In this document: piece by piece, positions 28,886 through 34,977 of the stretch
Layout: each line of letters opens with the position of its first letter
How positions within the stretch are numbered: the stretch's first letter is position 1
Assembly (NCBI GenBank): GCA_002708905.1
Contig: PAPM01000014.1
Location: forward strand, 1 to 64,000
Source of the DNA: Pseudomonadales bacterium
GTDB lineage: Bacteria > Pseudomonadota > Gammaproteobacteria > Pseudomonadales > Ketobacteraceae
Length of the DNA: 64,000 bases
Reading direction: 5' to 3'
The notes under the pieces: generated by a model
Databases searched by the model: none
What the model saw: the letters and a program-made list of their open reading frames with translations, nothing else
What the model was told of the DNA's origin: nothing
Made by a program: the position numbers and the translations under genes

Positions 28886-29083
28886 ATGGAATTCCAAACA
28901 ATACCCATCATCAGAATATTCGACGAAGAAAGGGCCAGGGAGTTTTACCTGGGATTTTTGGGGATGACAGTGGACTGGGAGCATCGCTTTGATCCCGAAG
29001 CGCCTATTTATATGCAGGTTTCCAAAGGCAATATGGTGTTTCATCTTAGCGAGCATTCCGGTGACTGTACGCCGGGCAGCTAA
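28886..29083 (+). pseudogene. Truncated glyoxalase/bleomycin-resistance family gene
   Basis: 65 residues covering only the first half of a glyoxalase-superfamily protein of the usual ~115-120: PIIRIFDEERAREFYLGFLGMTVDWEHRF, then YMQVSKGNMVFHLSEHSGD. The frame stops at TAA right after CTPGS. The second beta-alpha-beta half, which carries the remaining metal ligand, is absent, and nothing similar was found in the following 70 bases in any frame. Probably a remnant. Confidence 0.65.
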
Positions 29084-29148
29084 CTATTTGCCGGTGCGCC
29101 TCTTCTGTACCTGCATCTGCAGAGACACAGAAAAGACACACCGGTTGT

Positions 29149-29706
29149 TCACGGCATTCTGAAGTAAGACGATACCCCCTTACTCAAAAACGCCATTTGG
29201 TCCACCAGAATGCGATGGTTCGCCAACAAAGCGAATTCAAACACATTCGGCTTGTAGGGAATCGCCAGCAGCGGCATACCGGCCTCTTCCGGTGTGCGAC
29301 AGGCTTTGGCCTGATTGCAGGGCTTGCAGGCAGTTACCACGTTTTCCCATACATCCAGACCACCTCTTGCTCGGGGAAATACATGGTCTCGGCTCAGATC
29401 CCTGGCCGCAAACCGCTTGCCACAGTACAGGCACAGGTAGCGATCACGCCTGAACAGAAACCGATTATCCAAAGCCGGTGAAAAGTCCGCAACTTTGGCG
29501 GCTTTTTTGGTGGCCACGATGGGTGGCACCGCCAGCTGACTGGTGTGACCAGTTCGATCCTGACCACCGGTCAAGACAATGCTGCGTTCCCCCAGCGTCC
29601 ATACCACCTGATTCTTCACCATCAAGGTGGCGGCCTTTTCCGGGGTGACCCAGCGGATCGGCGAGCCGCAGACACCCAACCTCAATATCAAATTTTTAGT
29701 GGTCAT
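29149..29706 (-). CDS. HNH endonuclease family protein
   Basis: 185 residues from ATG 29706 (GAGGAA before it). The HNH core is intact: CLYCGKRFAARDLSRDHVFPRARGG has the first CxxC and the DH pair, followed by WENVVTACKPCNQAKACRTPEEAGM with the N and second CxxC. This architecture occurs in stand-alone host-encoded HNH proteins common in Proteobacteria. No phage or restriction genes are adjacent. Function unknown. Confidence 0.88.
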   Translation of the reverse strand: MTTKNLILRLGVCGSPIRWVTPEKAATLMVKNQVVWTLGERSIVLTGGQDRTGHTSQLAVPPIVATKKAAKVADFSPALDNRFLFRRDRYLCLYCGKRFAARDLSRDHVFPRARGGLDVWENVVTACKPCNQAKACRTPEEAGMPLLAIPYKPNVFEFALLANHRILVDQMAFLSKGVSSYFRMP

Positions 29707-29787
29707 CCCGCTTTCCTCTTTATTAAAGTTTGCTAAGCCGTTCATCCCTGCTAAGCGGGTTCGCCTTCGACCTTTTTATCGAAGTAA

Positions 29788-29820
29788 CAAAAAACCCCGG
29801 CAGGGAATCCAACCGGGGTT
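29788..29820 (-). terminator. Terminator of the minus-strand unit downstream of rtcR
   Basis: AACCCCGG (29793-29800) pairs with CCGGGGTT (29813-29820). On the minus strand it is followed by a run of at least six T. It lies before the HNH gene, so it closes a separate minus-strand transcript coming from about 30064. Confidence 0.85.
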
Positions 29821-29884
29821 TCTGATTCTGATCAGCGTTCACCTGGTTGGCAGCATGCCTCCCAGGTAATCTCCTGAAAGGCCG

Positions 29885-30022
29885 TTACAAATCGAGCTGT
29901 TCCTGTTTGGCTGTTATGGACGGGCAATACCCGCTACCGCCAGAAACCCACAGGCAGGCCGGCACCCGGCGCTTCCCGCCCTGGTGAAGATCAATCATGT
30001 TGATTAATGAGGTGACGCTCAT
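29885..30022 (-). CDS. Possible 45-residue small protein in the sigma-54 unit
   Basis: ATG at 30022 has GGAG 6 bases before it. The frame begins MSVTSLINMIDLHQGGKRR and ends at TAA 29885. It is soluble, with a basic middle and two cysteines. No similarity is recognised. The ribosome site is the main support; codon evidence is too short to judge. Confidence 0.35.
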   Translation of the reverse strand: MSVTSLINMIDLHQGGKRRVPACLWVSGGSGYCPSITAKQEQLDL

Positions 30023-30074
30023 GCCGCACTCCGATGCAGATAAAGACGCAGTATTAAAAGGTTGCTGCCAGCAA

Positions 30075-30090
30075 GGCTAATTTCGTGCCA
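30075..30090 (-). promoter_or_regulatory. Sigma-54 (-24/-12) promoter facing away from rtcR
   Basis: On the minus strand TGGCACG-AAAT-TAGCC: a perfect -24 box and a -12 box with one mismatch to TTGC, with GG and GC exactly 12 bases apart. The predicted start is about 30064. Confidence 0.7.
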
Positions 30091-30188
30091 GTTTGGTGGT
30101 TCAGTCAATAAAACGCCGGTTTTTCCGGTTCAGCGGCATAAATCCTGGTGTCAGCGGTTTTTTGCATGACAATAGCCTCAAGCCATAA

Positions 30189-30222
30189 ATATCTAGAAAG
30201 ATACGTTATATCTAGAAAGATA
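30189..30222 (-). promoter_or_regulatory. Tandem upstream activator sites overlapping the rtcR stop codon
   Basis: ATATCTAGAAAGATA occurs twice (30189-30203, 30208-30222), 19 bases apart. Each is a perfect inverted repeat TATCT-N4-AGATA. The pair is about 100 bases upstream of the sigma-54 promoter at 30075-30090, the normal distance for an enhancer-binding protein. The copy at 30208-30222 encodes the last codons and stop of rtcR. Confidence 0.6.
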
Positions 30223-31831
30223 GACTAAACCGTTTTACCGCCTCAAAGCTTAATCCGTACTTTTTCAGATACACCCCCAAGCGGTGGCTGTCATTACTGG
30301 AGGATTTCTGCAATCGGGACACTTCATAGAGTTTGCGCCCCGCTTCAGCGGCAGACTGGCAGCCAATACAAACCCGGATTACGGCCTCCAGCTGAACCCG
30401 TTCTATGTAGTCCAGGGAACGCACAACCTCCGTTCCCAGGTAGCGCTCCAACATGGAATCGGCTTCCTGGGCATCCAACTCCAGCCCCCAGCGATTGCGC
30501 AAGGTATCGATTTCATTACGTACCACCTCGGTAGTAATTCGCCCACCATCGCAGAGTGTGGCCATGCGGGTGACACTGGCATTCAGATCACGGAAATTAC
30601 CCGTCCACACCGCACCCGGACTTAAGGCAAATTCCAGGTAGGCCTTGCGCGCCTCACGACTGAAGGCGACATGACTGCCCTGCTCACCGGCGTATTGCGC
30701 CAACTCGTAATCCAGGTTGGGCTCCAGATCCTCCTTGCGTTCTTTCAAGCCTGGCAACTGATACACCCACAAATTGATGCGGGCCAGCAGGTCTTCCCGA
30801 AACACACCCTTGCGCACATCGATGCGCAGATCTCTATTGGTGCCGGCAATCAACTGGAACTCAGACTGCACCGGCTTATCCGAACCCAGCGGCAGGAATT
30901 GTTTTTCCTCAATGGCCCGCAACAACATCGCCTGCTCGTCCGCCCCCAGCTCACCGATTTCATCCAGAAACAGCACACCGCCATCGGCGCTTTTCAGCAA
31001 ACCATCGCGGGCACTGGCCGCACCGGTGTAAGCCCCTTTGCTGTGGCCGAACAGGGCGGACATGGCATTGTCACCGCGCAAGGTGGCACAGTTGATTTCG
31101 ATAAAGGCACCATCCACCTGGCGGCGCAGCTTTTTCAATTCATAAATGCGGCGCGCCAGCTGCGATTTACCCGCCCCGGTGGGCCCTGTGATCAACATGG
31201 GCGCCCGGGATTGAATCGCCACCCGCTCGATCTGTGCAATCATGGTGTTGAAGGCTTTGTTGCGAGTTTGAATCCCGGCCTTTAGATAATCCGTGCCCTC
31301 CAAATGCTCCTGCTTGAAGCGAGAAGCAATCTCGTCATAGCGGGACAGATCCAGGTCGATCACCTGAATCGGATACTCTTCAGCTTCCGTCTGTCGGGGC
31401 GAGCCTTGCAACAGCTTGCCGGGAAACAAGCGCGCTTCCGTCACCAGGAACACACAGATCTGCTGAATGTGAGAACCAGTGGTGATATGAAAGTAATAGT
31501 CGTCGCGGGAATTGAATTTTTGTTTCTTCAAAAAACCGGACAGGGTCAGGTACACCTGCGCCAGATCCCAGGGCGCATCAAAGGTCACCGGCAAGCATTC
31601 GACCTTGGTCTCCGGCGACAGCATTTCAATATCTGCCCGTACATCTTTTACCAGGCCTTCTTCACTTTCGTTATACAGCAGGCAGAAATGATGGATGGGC
31701 AATTCGGATTGTTGAAACAGGGCTACGCTGGGACGCCATTTCTCCCAGCGCTGCTCCCAACGCCCACGGCGCCGACTGGCCCGATCCATCACACTGCCCA
31801 AAATACCGAATACCACGTTCTTTTTCTTCAC
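30212..31831 (-). CDS. rtcR: RtcR, CARF-domain sigma-54 activator of RNA repair
   Basis: 539 residues. An N-terminal CARF sensor domain (about 1-185; starts KKKNVVFGILGSVMD, has DYYFHITTGSHIQQI) precedes an AAA+ domain with Walker A GPTGAGKS (216-223), GAYTGA sigma-54 contact loop (266-271) and Walker B GGVLFLDE (284-291). A C-terminal helix-turn-helix region follows. In Salmonella the CARF domain of RtcR senses damaged tRNA pieces with cyclic phosphate ends and then activates the rtc operon. It is divergent from rtcB with a sigma-54 promoter between them. The ATG is followed by three lysines. Confidence 0.96.
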   Translation of the reverse strand: MKKKNVVFGILGSVMDRASRRRGRWEQRWEKWRPSVALFQQSELPIHHFCLLYNESEEGLVKDVRADIEMLSPETKVECLPVTFDAPWDLAQVYLTLSGFLKKQKFNSRDDYYFHITTGSHIQQICVFLVTEARLFPGKLLQGSPRQTEAEEYPIQVIDLDLSRYDEIASRFKQEHLEGTDYLKAGIQTRNKAFNTMIAQIERVAIQSRAPMLITGPTGAGKSQLARRIYELKKLRRQVDGAFIEINCATLRGDNAMSALFGHSKGAYTGAASARDGLLKSADGGVLFLDEIGELGADEQAMLLRAIEEKQFLPLGSDKPVQSEFQLIAGTNRDLRIDVRKGVFREDLLARINLWVYQLPGLKERKEDLEPNLDYELAQYAGEQGSHVAFSREARKAYLEFALSPGAVWTGNFRDLNASVTRMATLCDGGRITTEVVRNEIDTLRNRWGLELDAQEADSMLERYLGTEVVRSLDYIERVQLEAVIRVCIGCQSAAEAGRKLYEVSRLQKSSSNDSHRLGVYLKKYGLSFEAVKRFSLSF

Positions 31832-31841
31832 CCGAGAAATC

Positions 31842-31879
31842 CTATCTGTTTTGATATGTCATATATCTATATAAATATA
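31842..31879 (+). promoter_or_regulatory. Candidate RtcR upstream activator sites for rtcB
   Basis: CTATCTGTTTTGATAT (31842-31857) and TATCTATATAAATAT (31864-31878) start 21 bases apart. They match the tandem sites at the end of rtcR at 13 of 16 and 12 of 15 positions by hand alignment. They end about 112 bases before the rtcB -24 box and also overlap the rtcR promoter region, allowing autoregulation. Confidence 0.55.
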
Positions 31880-31989
31880 CCGCCAACTGAGCGCTTTCGA
31901 TAGTCAAGAGTTTCTACCACACAAGCTGCCACAAATTAATCCAATAAAATCATGAATTTATGAGGTAACACCAATCTAAGAACAGAATC

Positions 31990-32005
31990 TGGCACAGTCC
32001 TCGCT
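31990..32005 (+). promoter_or_regulatory. Sigma-54 promoter of rtcB
   Basis: TGGCAC-AGTCC-TCGCT: perfect -24 box, -12 box with one mismatch, GG and GC 12 bases apart. The predicted start is near 32016, giving a ~68-base leader before rtcB. Confidence 0.8.
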
Positions 32006-32083
32006 AATACTCAGTCAAACACGCACAGCCAAACACGAACAAGCAAAAGCATGAAGAAAAACGCGCCTTTACGAGGAAAGACC

Positions 32084-33307
32084 ATGAACACGAACCACGA
32101 AGTGATGCATGACGAAGGGGTCCCGATCAAGTCCTGGACCCGTGGCGTTCCCTTTGAAGAGGAAGCCAAAAAGCAGCTGAAAAACATCGCTTCCATGCCG
32201 TTCATTCATAAGTGGGTAGCAGTAATGCCCGACGTACACTTAGGGAAAGGCGCGACGGTTGGTAGCGTTATTCCCACCGTAGGCGCGGTTATTCCCGCTG
32301 CAGTGGGCGTAGACATCGGATGCGGCATGATGGCAGTAAAAACCAGCCTGACCGCAGAGCAACTGCCGGATAATTTGTTTGCATTGCGTAGCGCGATTGA
32401 ACAAGCCGTTCCCCACGGACGCTCGGCAAAATTGCGTGGCCGTCGTGACAAAGGGGCGTGGAATGATCCACCCGCTGATGTCACCGCAGGCTGGTCGCAG
32501 CTGGATACCACCTTCAGCATGCTGCAGGACAAGCACCCGGTGCTGAAGAACACCAACAACATTAACCATCTGGGAACATTGGGAACCGGTAATCATTTTA
32601 TCGAGATCTGCCTGGATGAACATAATGCGGTATGGGTGATGTTGCACAGCGGGTCCCGTGGTGTGGGTAACCGTATAGGCACGCACTTTATCGAGCTGGC
32701 CAAAAAAGAAATGGAACGCTGGCATATCCAGTTGCCCGATAAAGACCTGGCGTACCTGCCGGAAGGCACAGAGCACTTCAATGACTATGTTGAAGCGGTG
32801 GATTGGGCGCAGAACTTCGCACAGATCAATCGCGAAGTGATGATGAACCGGGTGTTACAGGCATTGCAAACCACATTGAAACTGCCCTTTGAAGCCAGAA
32901 TGGAAGCGGTGAACTGTCACCACAACTATGTGTCCAGGGAGCACCATTACGACAAAAACGTCATCGTAACCCGTAAAGGTGCTGTGCGCGCACAGGCTGG
33001 CGAAATGGGGATCATTCCCGGCAGCATGGGTGCCCGCTCCTTTATTGTACGGGGATTGGGAAATGCAGAAAGCTTTTGCAGCTGCAGCCATGGTGCCGGA
33101 CGAGTGATGTCCCGTACGGAAGCAAAAAAGCGTGTCAGTCTGGCAGATCACATTGCCGCGACTGAAGGTGTGGAATGCCGGAAAGATACAGACGTAATCG
33201 ACGAGTCCCCTGCGGCTTACAAACCTATCGATCAGGTTATGGAAGCACAGAAGGATCTGGTTGAGATCGTCTACACCCTGAAGCAGGTTGTCTGCGTAAA
33301 AGGGTAA
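32084..33307 (+). CDS. rtcB: RNA ligase RtcB
   Basis: 407 residues. GTP- and Mn-dependent ligase joining 2',3'-cyclic phosphate (or 3'-phosphate) ends to 5'-OH ends. Family landmarks: MPDVHLGKGATVGSVIP, the metal cysteine in VGVDIGCGM, GNHFIE, HSGSRGVG, VNCHHNYV and the guanylylated histidine in CSHGAGRVMSR. ATG 32084 (GAGGAAAG 6 bases before) is chosen over an ATG at 32051. Length equals the Escherichia coli enzyme. No RtcA cyclase or Ro60/Rsr gene follows; instead a tRNA-like RNA and a slipin. Confidence 0.97.
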   Translation: MNTNHEVMHDEGVPIKSWTRGVPFEEEAKKQLKNIASMPFIHKWVAVMPDVHLGKGATVGSVIPTVGAVIPAAVGVDIGCGMMAVKTSLTAEQLPDNLFALRSAIEQAVPHGRSAKLRGRRDKGAWNDPPADVTAGWSQLDTTFSMLQDKHPVLKNTNNINHLGTLGTGNHFIEICLDEHNAVWVMLHSGSRGVGNRIGTHFIELAKKEMERWHIQLPDKDLAYLPEGTEHFNDYVEAVDWAQNFAQINREVMMNRVLQALQTTLKLPFEARMEAVNCHHNYVSREHHYDKNVIVTRKGAVRAQAGEMGIIPGSMGARSFIVRGLGNAESFCSCSHGAGRVMSRTEAKKRVSLADHIAATEGVECRKDTDVIDESPAAYKPIDQVMEAQKDLVEIVYTLKQVVCVKG

Positions 33308-33310
33308 ACC

Positions 33311-33414
33311 GAGTTTAAGTGTTGGTTTGAATGCAGCGGAGCGGGTTCTGGACACCCGCCCGGCACGAGGTGTGTCACTGATCGTGTACCCCATTCGAGT
33401 TCAGCTTAAACCTC
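33311..33414 (+). ncRNA. Structured RNA segment after rtcB
   Basis: GAGTTTAAG (33311-33319) can pair with CTTAAACCTC (33405-33414, one bulge). This long-range stem encloses a perfect hairpin GCGGGT/ACCCGC (33341-33359). It ends exactly where the tRNA-like fold starts, so it could present or process that RNA. Confidence 0.4.
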
Positions 33415-33486
33415 AGCATGTAGCTCAGTTGGTAGAGCAATCGACTCATAATCGATCTGGCACGGGTTCAATTCCCGTCATGTTAA
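33414..33486 (+). tRNA. tRNA-like RNA with anticodon CAU between rtcB and slipin
   Basis: A complete cloverleaf can be drawn: D-arm GCTC/GAGC with GG in the loop, anticodon stem ATCGA/TCGAT with loop CTCATAA (CAU), T-arm ACGGG/CCCGT with loop TTCAATT, and discriminator A73. The acceptor stem (33414-33420 with 33479-33485) has a C1-A72 mismatch and a G3-U70 wobble. C1-A72 is an initiator-tRNA feature, but the three G-C anticodon-stem pairs of initiators are absent. CCA is not encoded (CCGG). Its place inside an RNA-repair operon suggests a decoy, sensor ligand or repair substrate rather than a housekeeping tRNA. Confidence 0.6.
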
Positions 33487-33535
33487 CCGGAAAAGGCTAA
33501 CGCCTCGGGGTTCGAATCCCCTCCATAGTAACACC
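33481..33535 (+). ncRNA. Second T-arm/acceptor minihelix
   Basis: GGGG-TTCGAAT-CCCC (a consensus T-arm) lies just after the first tRNA-like fold. TGTTA (33481-33485) can pair with TAACA (33529-33533) as an alternative acceptor helix, and GTTAACC can pair with GGCTAAC as a small hairpin. No D- or anticodon arm is present. It looks like a tRNA remnant or a deliberate minihelix module. Confidence 0.45.
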
Positions 33536-33742
33536 GGAGTCCATGCTGTTGGGGGAGCGGTTCGCCGTCCTCTGCAGGCTGATACCGGCAGACAGCGTTG
33601 CGGGTTTGTTGTGCGCGCACCGACTTGAATGTTGAACGCGTGGTTGCGGCAGGAGCCGATTGTGACAGGGACGTCACCCACCACACCGACCACAGGAAAG
33701 CTGAGTGCCCGGATAACACAAACAACGCTTCATGCCGGTGTC

Positions 33743-33763
33743 AGGTGGGCTCCACCTATTTTA
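33743..33763 (+). terminator. Attenuator-like hairpin before the slipin gene
   Basis: AGGTGG-GCT-CCACCT (33743-33757) is followed by ATTTTA. It could end or shield the tRNA-like RNA while letting some transcription enter the slipin gene. The T run is short. Confidence 0.45.
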
Positions 33764-33765
33764 AT

Positions 33766-33799
33766 GAATAAATAAAAAGTTAAACGAATAAATAAAAAG
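33766..33799 (+). repeat. Direct repeat before the slipin ribosome site
   Basis: GAATAAATAAAAAG occurs at 33766-33779 and 33786-33799, and the second copy runs into AAGGA. An A/T-rich unstructured region may aid translation. The rest of the 503-base rtcB-slipin gap, apart from the RNA folds listed, shows only further G/C-rich hairpins and no open frame of note. Confidence 0.6.
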
Positions 33800-33810
33800 G
33801 AAATACGGTC

Positions 33811-34977
33811 ATGTTTTGGAAAACCATTCAGATCGCCGATAACGAACGTGGCTTGCTGTACCGCCGTGATCGTTTCAGCGGTGTACTGCAACCCGGTCGC
33901 CACCGTTTAAGTAAATTCGGTGGCGAAATCCGGGTGGAGAAATACGATGCCAGCGCCGTCGTGTTTGAACACATTCGCGCGCGCTTTCTGTTGAACCAAC
34001 ACGCAGTGTTGCTGAACGAGCACCTGCAGGGTGTCGACATGGGTGACGAACAACTGGGTCTGGTGTATCGCAACAACCACCTGGTGGATGTGATTGCCCC
34101 CGGCGTGTTTTACGCCTACTGGAAAGGCATTGAGGATGTGCGGGTAGACGTGCTGAACCTGCAAGCCGGCGCTGCCGTCGGCGATCAGTTACTGGGTGTT
34201 TTGGGCCGTGGAGCCAATGTTGCGCTGCGTCAAAAAGCCCAGTCCCTGATGTTGTACGTGGAAGTGCCAGAAGCCCAGGTGGGCTTGATGTTTCTGAACG
34301 GCAAGTTCGAACGGGAACTGAGACCCGGCCGCTACGGTTTCTGGCAGCTGAACCGACACATTCAGGTGGTCAACGTAGATCTGCGCGTGCAAGCAGCGGA
34401 AGTCAGCGGCCAGGAAATCCTGACCAAGGACCGGGTGAGTCTGCGCATCAACCTGAGCGCCAACTATCAGGTGGTCGACGCCCAGAAAGCCGCATTGAAG
34501 GTGAAGGACTTCACCAACTTTGTGTACCGTGAACTGCAGTTCGGTTTGCGGGAAGTGGTGGGTGAAAAAACCCTGGATGACTTACTGGCGGACAAGGATG
34601 CGTTGAACAGCACCATCTTCAACAGCGCCCTGGAAAAGCTGTCTGCCTATGGCATCCGGTTGTTGAGCGTGGGTATCAAGGACATCATTCTGCCCGGCGA
34701 AATGAAAGCGATCCTGAATCAGGTGGTCCAGGCCCAGAAGGAATCCGAAGCCAACCTGATCAAACGCCGTGAGGAAACCCAGGCTATGCGTTCACTGCAC
34801 AACACCGCCAGAATGATGGACAACAACCCTGTGTTGTTGCGCCTGAAAGAACTGGAATCACTGGAACGGGTGGTGAGCCGTATTGGTCAAATCAACGTTT
34901 ACGGTGGTCTGGATGCAGTAATGAAGGATCTGGTAAAACTGAAAGATGTGAAACAGGAGGGTAATTTGTCCGGTTAA
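33811..34977 (+). CDS. Slipin family (SPFH/band 7) protein of the RNA-repair operon
   Basis: 388 residues. The central SPFH/band-7 domain runs through VNVDLRVQAAEVSGQEILT, LTKDRVSLRINLSANYQV and the helical AILNQVVQAQKESEANLIKRREETQAMRSL region. The N-terminal part contains two repeated copies of a short beta module (ADNERGLLYRRDRFSGVLQPGR and EAQVGLMFLNGKFERELRPGR). No clear membrane segment. Slipins are known neighbours of RtcB in many bacteria; the mechanism is not established. AAGGA stands before the ATG. Confidence 0.9.
   Translation: MFWKTIQIADNERGLLYRRDRFSGVLQPGRHRLSKFGGEIRVEKYDASAVVFEHIRARFLLNQHAVLLNEHLQGVDMGDEQLGLVYRNNHLVDVIAPGVFYAYWKGIEDVRVDVLNLQAGAAVGDQLLGVLGRGANVALRQKAQSLMLYVEVPEAQVGLMFLNGKFERELRPGRYGFWQLNRHIQVVNVDLRVQAAEVSGQEILTKDRVSLRINLSANYQVVDAQKAALKVKDFTNFVYRELQFGLREVVGEKTLDDLLADKDALNSTIFNSALEKLSAYGIRLLSVGIKDIILPGEMKAILNQVVQAQKESEANLIKRREETQAMRSLHNTARMMDNNPVLLRLKELESLERVVSRIGQINVYGGLDAVMKDLVKLKDVKQEGNLSG

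Follow-up and report, generated by a model that had tools for sequence, protein, structure and literature searches.

A predicted second RtcR/sigma-54 promoter in the rtcR-HNH gap of a Ketobacteraceae genome precedes a candidate leader-peptide attenuator that recurs before HNH and tRNA genes

Introduction

In E. coli and Salmonella, the target of RtcR is rtcBA or rsr-yrlBA-rtcBA, as far as the accounts in PMC9650030 and PMC7790460 extend. Here, we analyse a 64,000-nt stretch of a Pseudomonadales bacterium contig (PAPM01000014.1; hereafter, the window), which shares with these operons an activator of the RtcR family, a sigma-54 promoter and an upstream enhancer. Unlike the arrangement described in those accounts, the window contains a second predicted promoter, located at the opposite end of rtcR and directed towards a gene for an HNH protein. 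Genes of the same kinds are found in tRNA array units (PMC5966550) and in the TrcR regulon of Anabaena, where an HNH gene, a slipin gene, rtcB and a 26-gene tRNA operon are jointly repressed by TrcR (PMC10272220). In that regulon, translation-blocking antibiotics induce the tRNA operon, and a translation inhibitor induces most of these TrcR-repressed genes (PMC10272220). TrcR is a ribbon-helix-helix repressor, unlike the regulator in the window, and PMC10272220 makes no mention of attenuation.

Known attenuators offer a second comparison. At gathering score, Rfam identifies only a tRNA. The best sub-threshold match is His_leader (RF00514), which aligns over its full length at 29786-29909 with 25.9 bits (E 0.043); its curated cut-off of 49 bits is not reached, and no Rfam family covers the element at curated cut-off. 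Like attenuators of the trp/his type, the element described below combines a short leader that appears to be translated, alternative hairpins and an intrinsic terminator ahead of the putatively regulated gene. Unlike them, its ORF stops directly beside the first pairing segment and has no run of codons for a single amino acid, and it precedes HNH, tRNA or slipin genes rather than genes of amino-acid biosynthesis. Bacillus subtilis vmlR, in the part of its regulation covered by PMC9226507, likewise has a leader ORF and attenuation before a translation-inhibition gene; within that scope, there is no known sequence relation to our element, the genes differ, and the sigma-54/RtcR promoter is a feature of the window. 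An initial annotation of the gap between rtcR and the HNH gene knew of no described equivalent, and we too found none in Rfam or in a non-exhaustive search of the literature.

Results

In the window, rtcR (30212-31831, minus strand) encodes a sigma-54 activator with an RtcR (CARF) domain, scoring above the cut-off of NF038308. The RNA ligase gene rtcB (32051-33307, plus strand) is oriented divergently from it, with a control region at 31864-32005 (plus strand) that comprises a degenerate dyad, TATCTATATAAATA (31864-31877), and a sigma-54 promoter, TGGCACAGTCCTCGCT (31990-32005). On the other side of rtcR, beyond the gap, lies the HNH gene (29149-29706, minus strand), which is the proposed regulated gene. 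Its 185-aa product carries a Cas9/IscB-type HNH domain, preceded by an N-terminal part that has no clear match.

All of the gap features listed by the initial annotation (palindromes, sigma-54 promoter, 45-codon ORF with ribosome-binding site, hairpin and terminator) are present on the minus strand where it had placed them. Two tandem putative RtcR enhancer dyads, TATC-N6-GATA, form an upstream activating sequence (UAS; TATCTTTCTAGATATAACGTATCTTTCTAGATA, 30190-30222) that overlaps the rtcR stop codon. They are followed by a sigma-54 -24/-12 promoter, TGGCACGAAATTAGCC (30075-30090), with a predicted start at about 30064; by the leader ORF (29885-30022), which begins with ATG behind the Shine-Dalgarno (SD) sequence CGGAG at about 30029-30033; by a hairpin (about 29841-29867); and by an intrinsic terminator (29789-29820) that would form the 3′ end of the leader transcript. 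Between terminator and HNH gene lies a 29-nt block, TTGTTACTTCGATAAAAAGGTCGAAGGCG (29762-29790, minus strand), which is identical in three species. These are the window's own organism (G000, 5.4 Mb), a relative of the same genus (G014) and a further relative that also has the order rtcR-gap-HNH (G007). In both relatives, the promoter, SD and ATG, ORF end, hairpin and terminator are kept; the rest of the gap is strongly diverged.

The pair of dyads in this gap is the only one in the window's genome. At many gammaproteobacterial rtcR loci, a dyad of this kind lies 27-47 bp upstream of rtcR, adjoining the sigma-54 promoter of rtcB, so TATC-N6-GATA is likely to be the RtcR enhancer; the one in the gap is of the same kind as that at the rtcB promoter. 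The -24/-12 element has its GG and GC at exact spacing, which is kept in the three species, the relatives having TGGCACGAATTTCGCC (G014) and TGGCACATAATTCGCT (G007). The combined pattern dyad-N85..115-TGGCA-N8-GC has one match in G000 (the gap), one in G014 (the same gap) and two in G007 (the rtcB promoter and the same gap); its reversed control gives zero matches in these three genomes. That the gap holds a second RtcR/sigma-54 promoter, besides that of rtcB, is thus a well-supported prediction. The initial annotation had proposed such a unit, reading away from rtcR, and had looked to relatives for conservation of palindromes and promoter; both are indeed kept beside rtcR in G014 and G007, and the paired dyad is unique in the window's genome.

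Several features of the gap go beyond that annotation: the conserved 29-nt block, a pairing segment beside the ORF stop codon, a set of alternative pairings, and copies of the whole element elsewhere. On the minus strand, segment a (GCCTTTCAGG, 29873-29882) starts 2 nt past the stop codon and can pair with segment b (CCTGGGAGGC, 29857-29866); b can pair instead with segment c (TGCCAACCAGG, 29842-29852); and c can pair instead with segment d (CCCCGGTTGG, 29809-29818). Segment d doubles as the 5′ arm of the terminator, in which case it pairs with the terminator 3′ arm rather than with c, as it would in an antiterminator. The order, spacing and ends of the four segments are kept in the three species, with spacing nearly constant.

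We scanned 391 genomes of the order with a covariance model built from six copies of the element. All eight top-scoring matches lie at rtc/HNH loci, including two (G004 and G029) that were outside the model. The same order of a, b, c, d and terminator is found upstream of HNH in G001 and G002, on the rtcB operon side. Overall, the element lies upstream of HNH in G001, G002 and G004, where the HNH protein is about 50% identical, and upstream of tRNA genes plus HNH in G162 (seven tRNA genes and HNH), G029 and G236. The match in G236, where HNH lies further down behind a tRNA array, is one of the weaker ones, as are those in G147 and G750 (element, then tRNA-Met, then slipin) and in G686 (element before tRNA-Cys, Pro and His). 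A class-wide scan adds G388, with five tRNA genes downstream. These weaker matches overlap in score with plain terminators, so that the neighbouring genes and the stop-codon test described below carry the weight there, and the neighbour criterion was applied after the matches had been seen. Matches of about 30-45 bits that had no tRNA, HNH or slipin neighbours were discounted, as they resemble generic GC-rich terminators; G508 was also left out: it shows the stop-codon feature, yet neither tRNA nor HNH genes lie near its match. Copies with compensatory changes thus recur in several other families, where they precede HNH genes, tRNA arrays or slipin genes, and the RNA element as such is a well-supported prediction.

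Several of the element copies outside the Ketobacter trio are preceded by sigma-70-like promoters, judged by consensus alone, and an enhancer dyad with a sigma-54 site was absent upstream of the copies outside the trio. The RtcR-driven form is found in three genomes of one family only. The RtcR promoter in front of the element therefore appears to be a local arrangement of Ketobacter-type genomes.

In the three genomes with the order rtcR-gap-HNH, the leader is a frame of 45, 57 or 62 codons with start codon, SD sequence CGGAG and a common end position, and the peptides end in KQEQLDL, KQEQLDV and SQKRLDFQ. Between its ends the peptide is poorly conserved: over 45 aligned codons, 25 of the codon changes between window and G014 are nonsynonymous and 6 are synonymous, with no excess at third positions, whereas the neighbouring RtcR, RtcB and HNH proteins are 90-93% identical in the same pair. 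This suggests that the act of translation matters more than the peptide made. The peptide matches no protein family, and in other lineages unrelated-looking peptides with widely differing C-termini end at the same position of the RNA. In each of the 12 elements compared, an upstream frame that is open for 30 codons or more has its end at -21 to -12 relative to segment b, whereas at other offsets this holds for at most 6 of 12, and usually for 0-2; as the interval was chosen after the elements had been seen, it is the difference between offsets that should be given weight.

The a:b, b:c and c:d pairings are mutually exclusive. Segment a pairs with b better than shuffled versions of a do in 11 of 12 elements (p < 0.015), and the combined p is about 1e-17 if relatedness is ignored. 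Six pairs in the hairpin and terminator have changes on both sides, and none of 500 shuffles did as well. Pairing of c with d is weak in G029, in G004 and in the second element of G236, and set against real terminator arms its p for single elements is mostly 0.05-0.17. Direct support for the antiterminator comes from columns 19 and 20. In most rows they are complementary to d although b:c leaves them unpaired, and they covary with d: the pair is AU in most rows, UA in G147 and G750, and GC in one (column 20). The two genomes with UA are close relatives, and their AU to UA changes count as one event. When transcripts ended after d are folded, a:b together with c:d forms in 11 of 11 elements if all segments are free. 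If 15 nt from the stop codon are masked, so that a is covered, b:c forms in 7 of the 11; in the remaining 4, c:d rather than b:c stays the minimum-energy fold. Seven elements were also compared with dinucleotide shuffles of their own, and for none of them did more than 1 shuffle in 1000 show all three pairings. The predicted antiterminator and terminator pairings thus exclude each other and covary, as in a leader-peptide attenuator.

Discussion

We consider it probable that the gap comprises an RtcR/sigma-54 promoter and a leader-peptide attenuator of the downstream HNH gene. As the element precedes HNH or tRNA genes elsewhere, mostly behind sigma-70-like promoters, its most plausible role is that of an attenuator leader for whichever gene follows it. 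The operation of the switch, its sign and the role of HNH we infer from the arrangement of the parts. RNA damage sensed by RtcR would start a transcript at about 30064 through the two dyads and the -24/-12 promoter, and ribosomes would translate the short leader ORF, whose stop codon abuts segment a. When the leader is fully translated, the ribosome would cover a, b would pair with c, and d would be free for the 3′ arm of the terminator, stopping transcription before HNH. When translation of the leader is slow or fails, for example because tRNAs are broken or ribosomes are blocked, a would pair with b and c with d, the terminator would not form, and HNH would be transcribed. Expression of HNH would then depend on two conditions at once, active RtcR and poor translation. 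More tentatively, and with somewhat less than even confidence, we propose that attenuators of this class sense translation and, when it fails, switch on reserve tRNAs together with a Cas9-type HNH nuclease; placed under RtcR in Ketobacter-type genomes, such an attenuator would act as an AND gate for RNA-end damage and failing translation.

The initial annotation had taken the transcript itself, or a micro-protein, to be the output, and on present evidence it is probably neither. If the transcript were a free-standing small RNA induced by RtcR, its 276 nt would end at the terminator and act in trans, and HNH would have a promoter of its own. The terminator is strong and the hairpin conserved, and the perfectly conserved 29-nt block just upstream of HNH could hold a separate control site or a promoter for HNH. 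It is nonetheless hard to see why a plain terminator would show covariation between c and d, or why, in other families, HNH or tRNA genes should follow the element directly and an apparently translated ORF should end next to it. Moreover, a scan of 29000-34000 did not find a sigma-70 consensus promoter. We therefore regard this reading as unlikely.

Ribosome arrest at a stop codon, of the TnaC type, is known. It is conceivable that the switch has the opposite sign, with the ribosome arrested at the stop codon, either by the leader peptide or through defective release, so that it covers a and causes termination. The position of the stop codon exactly beside a and the conservation of some C-terminal residues would fit; the C-termini differ widely between lineages, though, and termination under translation stress would silence the tRNA genes that elsewhere lie behind the element. 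We rate this slightly below the small RNA. Finally, it is very improbable that the product is a functional micro-protein of 45-62 residues induced by RtcR: the SD sequence, the start and end positions shared by the three species and the short conserved C-terminus speak for it, but the divergence between the ends and the unrelated-looking peptides in other lineages argue against it.

We also considered whether HNH could be an IscB-like RNA-guided protein that uses the RNA of the gap for guidance. The IscB model scores 40.4 bits against a cut-off of 175, and residues 83-140 alone match. As only the HNH domain is matched and copies of the element stand before tRNA genes too, this idea was rejected.

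If the attenuator reading is right, the RtcR regulon would reach further than the rtcB operon, and bacteria may couple RNA repair to tRNA supply through a leader that reads translation and controls tRNA, HNH and slipin genes. The covariance model can be used to find such operons. Within the order, rtcB is repeatedly grouped with tRNA genes, slipin and, in some genomes, HNH. Loci L138, L139 and L167 have rtc- or HNH-linked arrays of 4 to 12 tRNA genes, with HNH and slipin interspersed. Such arrays are possibly spare tRNAs for times of translation stress.

Some smaller features of the window deserve mention. A tRNA-Met(CAT)-type gene directly follows rtcB, and then comes what appears to be the 3′ half of a second tRNA, with T-arm GGGGTTCGAATCCCC (33414-33540); both are kept in G014 and G007. 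No rtcA ORF is present between rtcB and slipin (33308-33810), unlike in G001 and G029, where an RtcA-like ORF follows rtcB. The leader ORF (29898-29914, minus strand) and the 5′ leader of rtcB (32025-32041, plus strand) share a 17-nt repeat, in sense orientation and with a single mismatch, which is not kept in G014. A DNA search against plasmids gave no match. The 29-nt block (29762-29790), which occurs once in the genome, contains a stem, CTTCGA/TCGAAG, with loop TAAAAAGG. At other loci (L136, L137 and L139), about 200-300 nt before the element and ahead of the leader ORF, there is a second terminator-like hairpin, which is perhaps part of a tandem attenuator; at L136 and L139, it is preceded by a stem of the type GGAAGGC...GCCTTCC.
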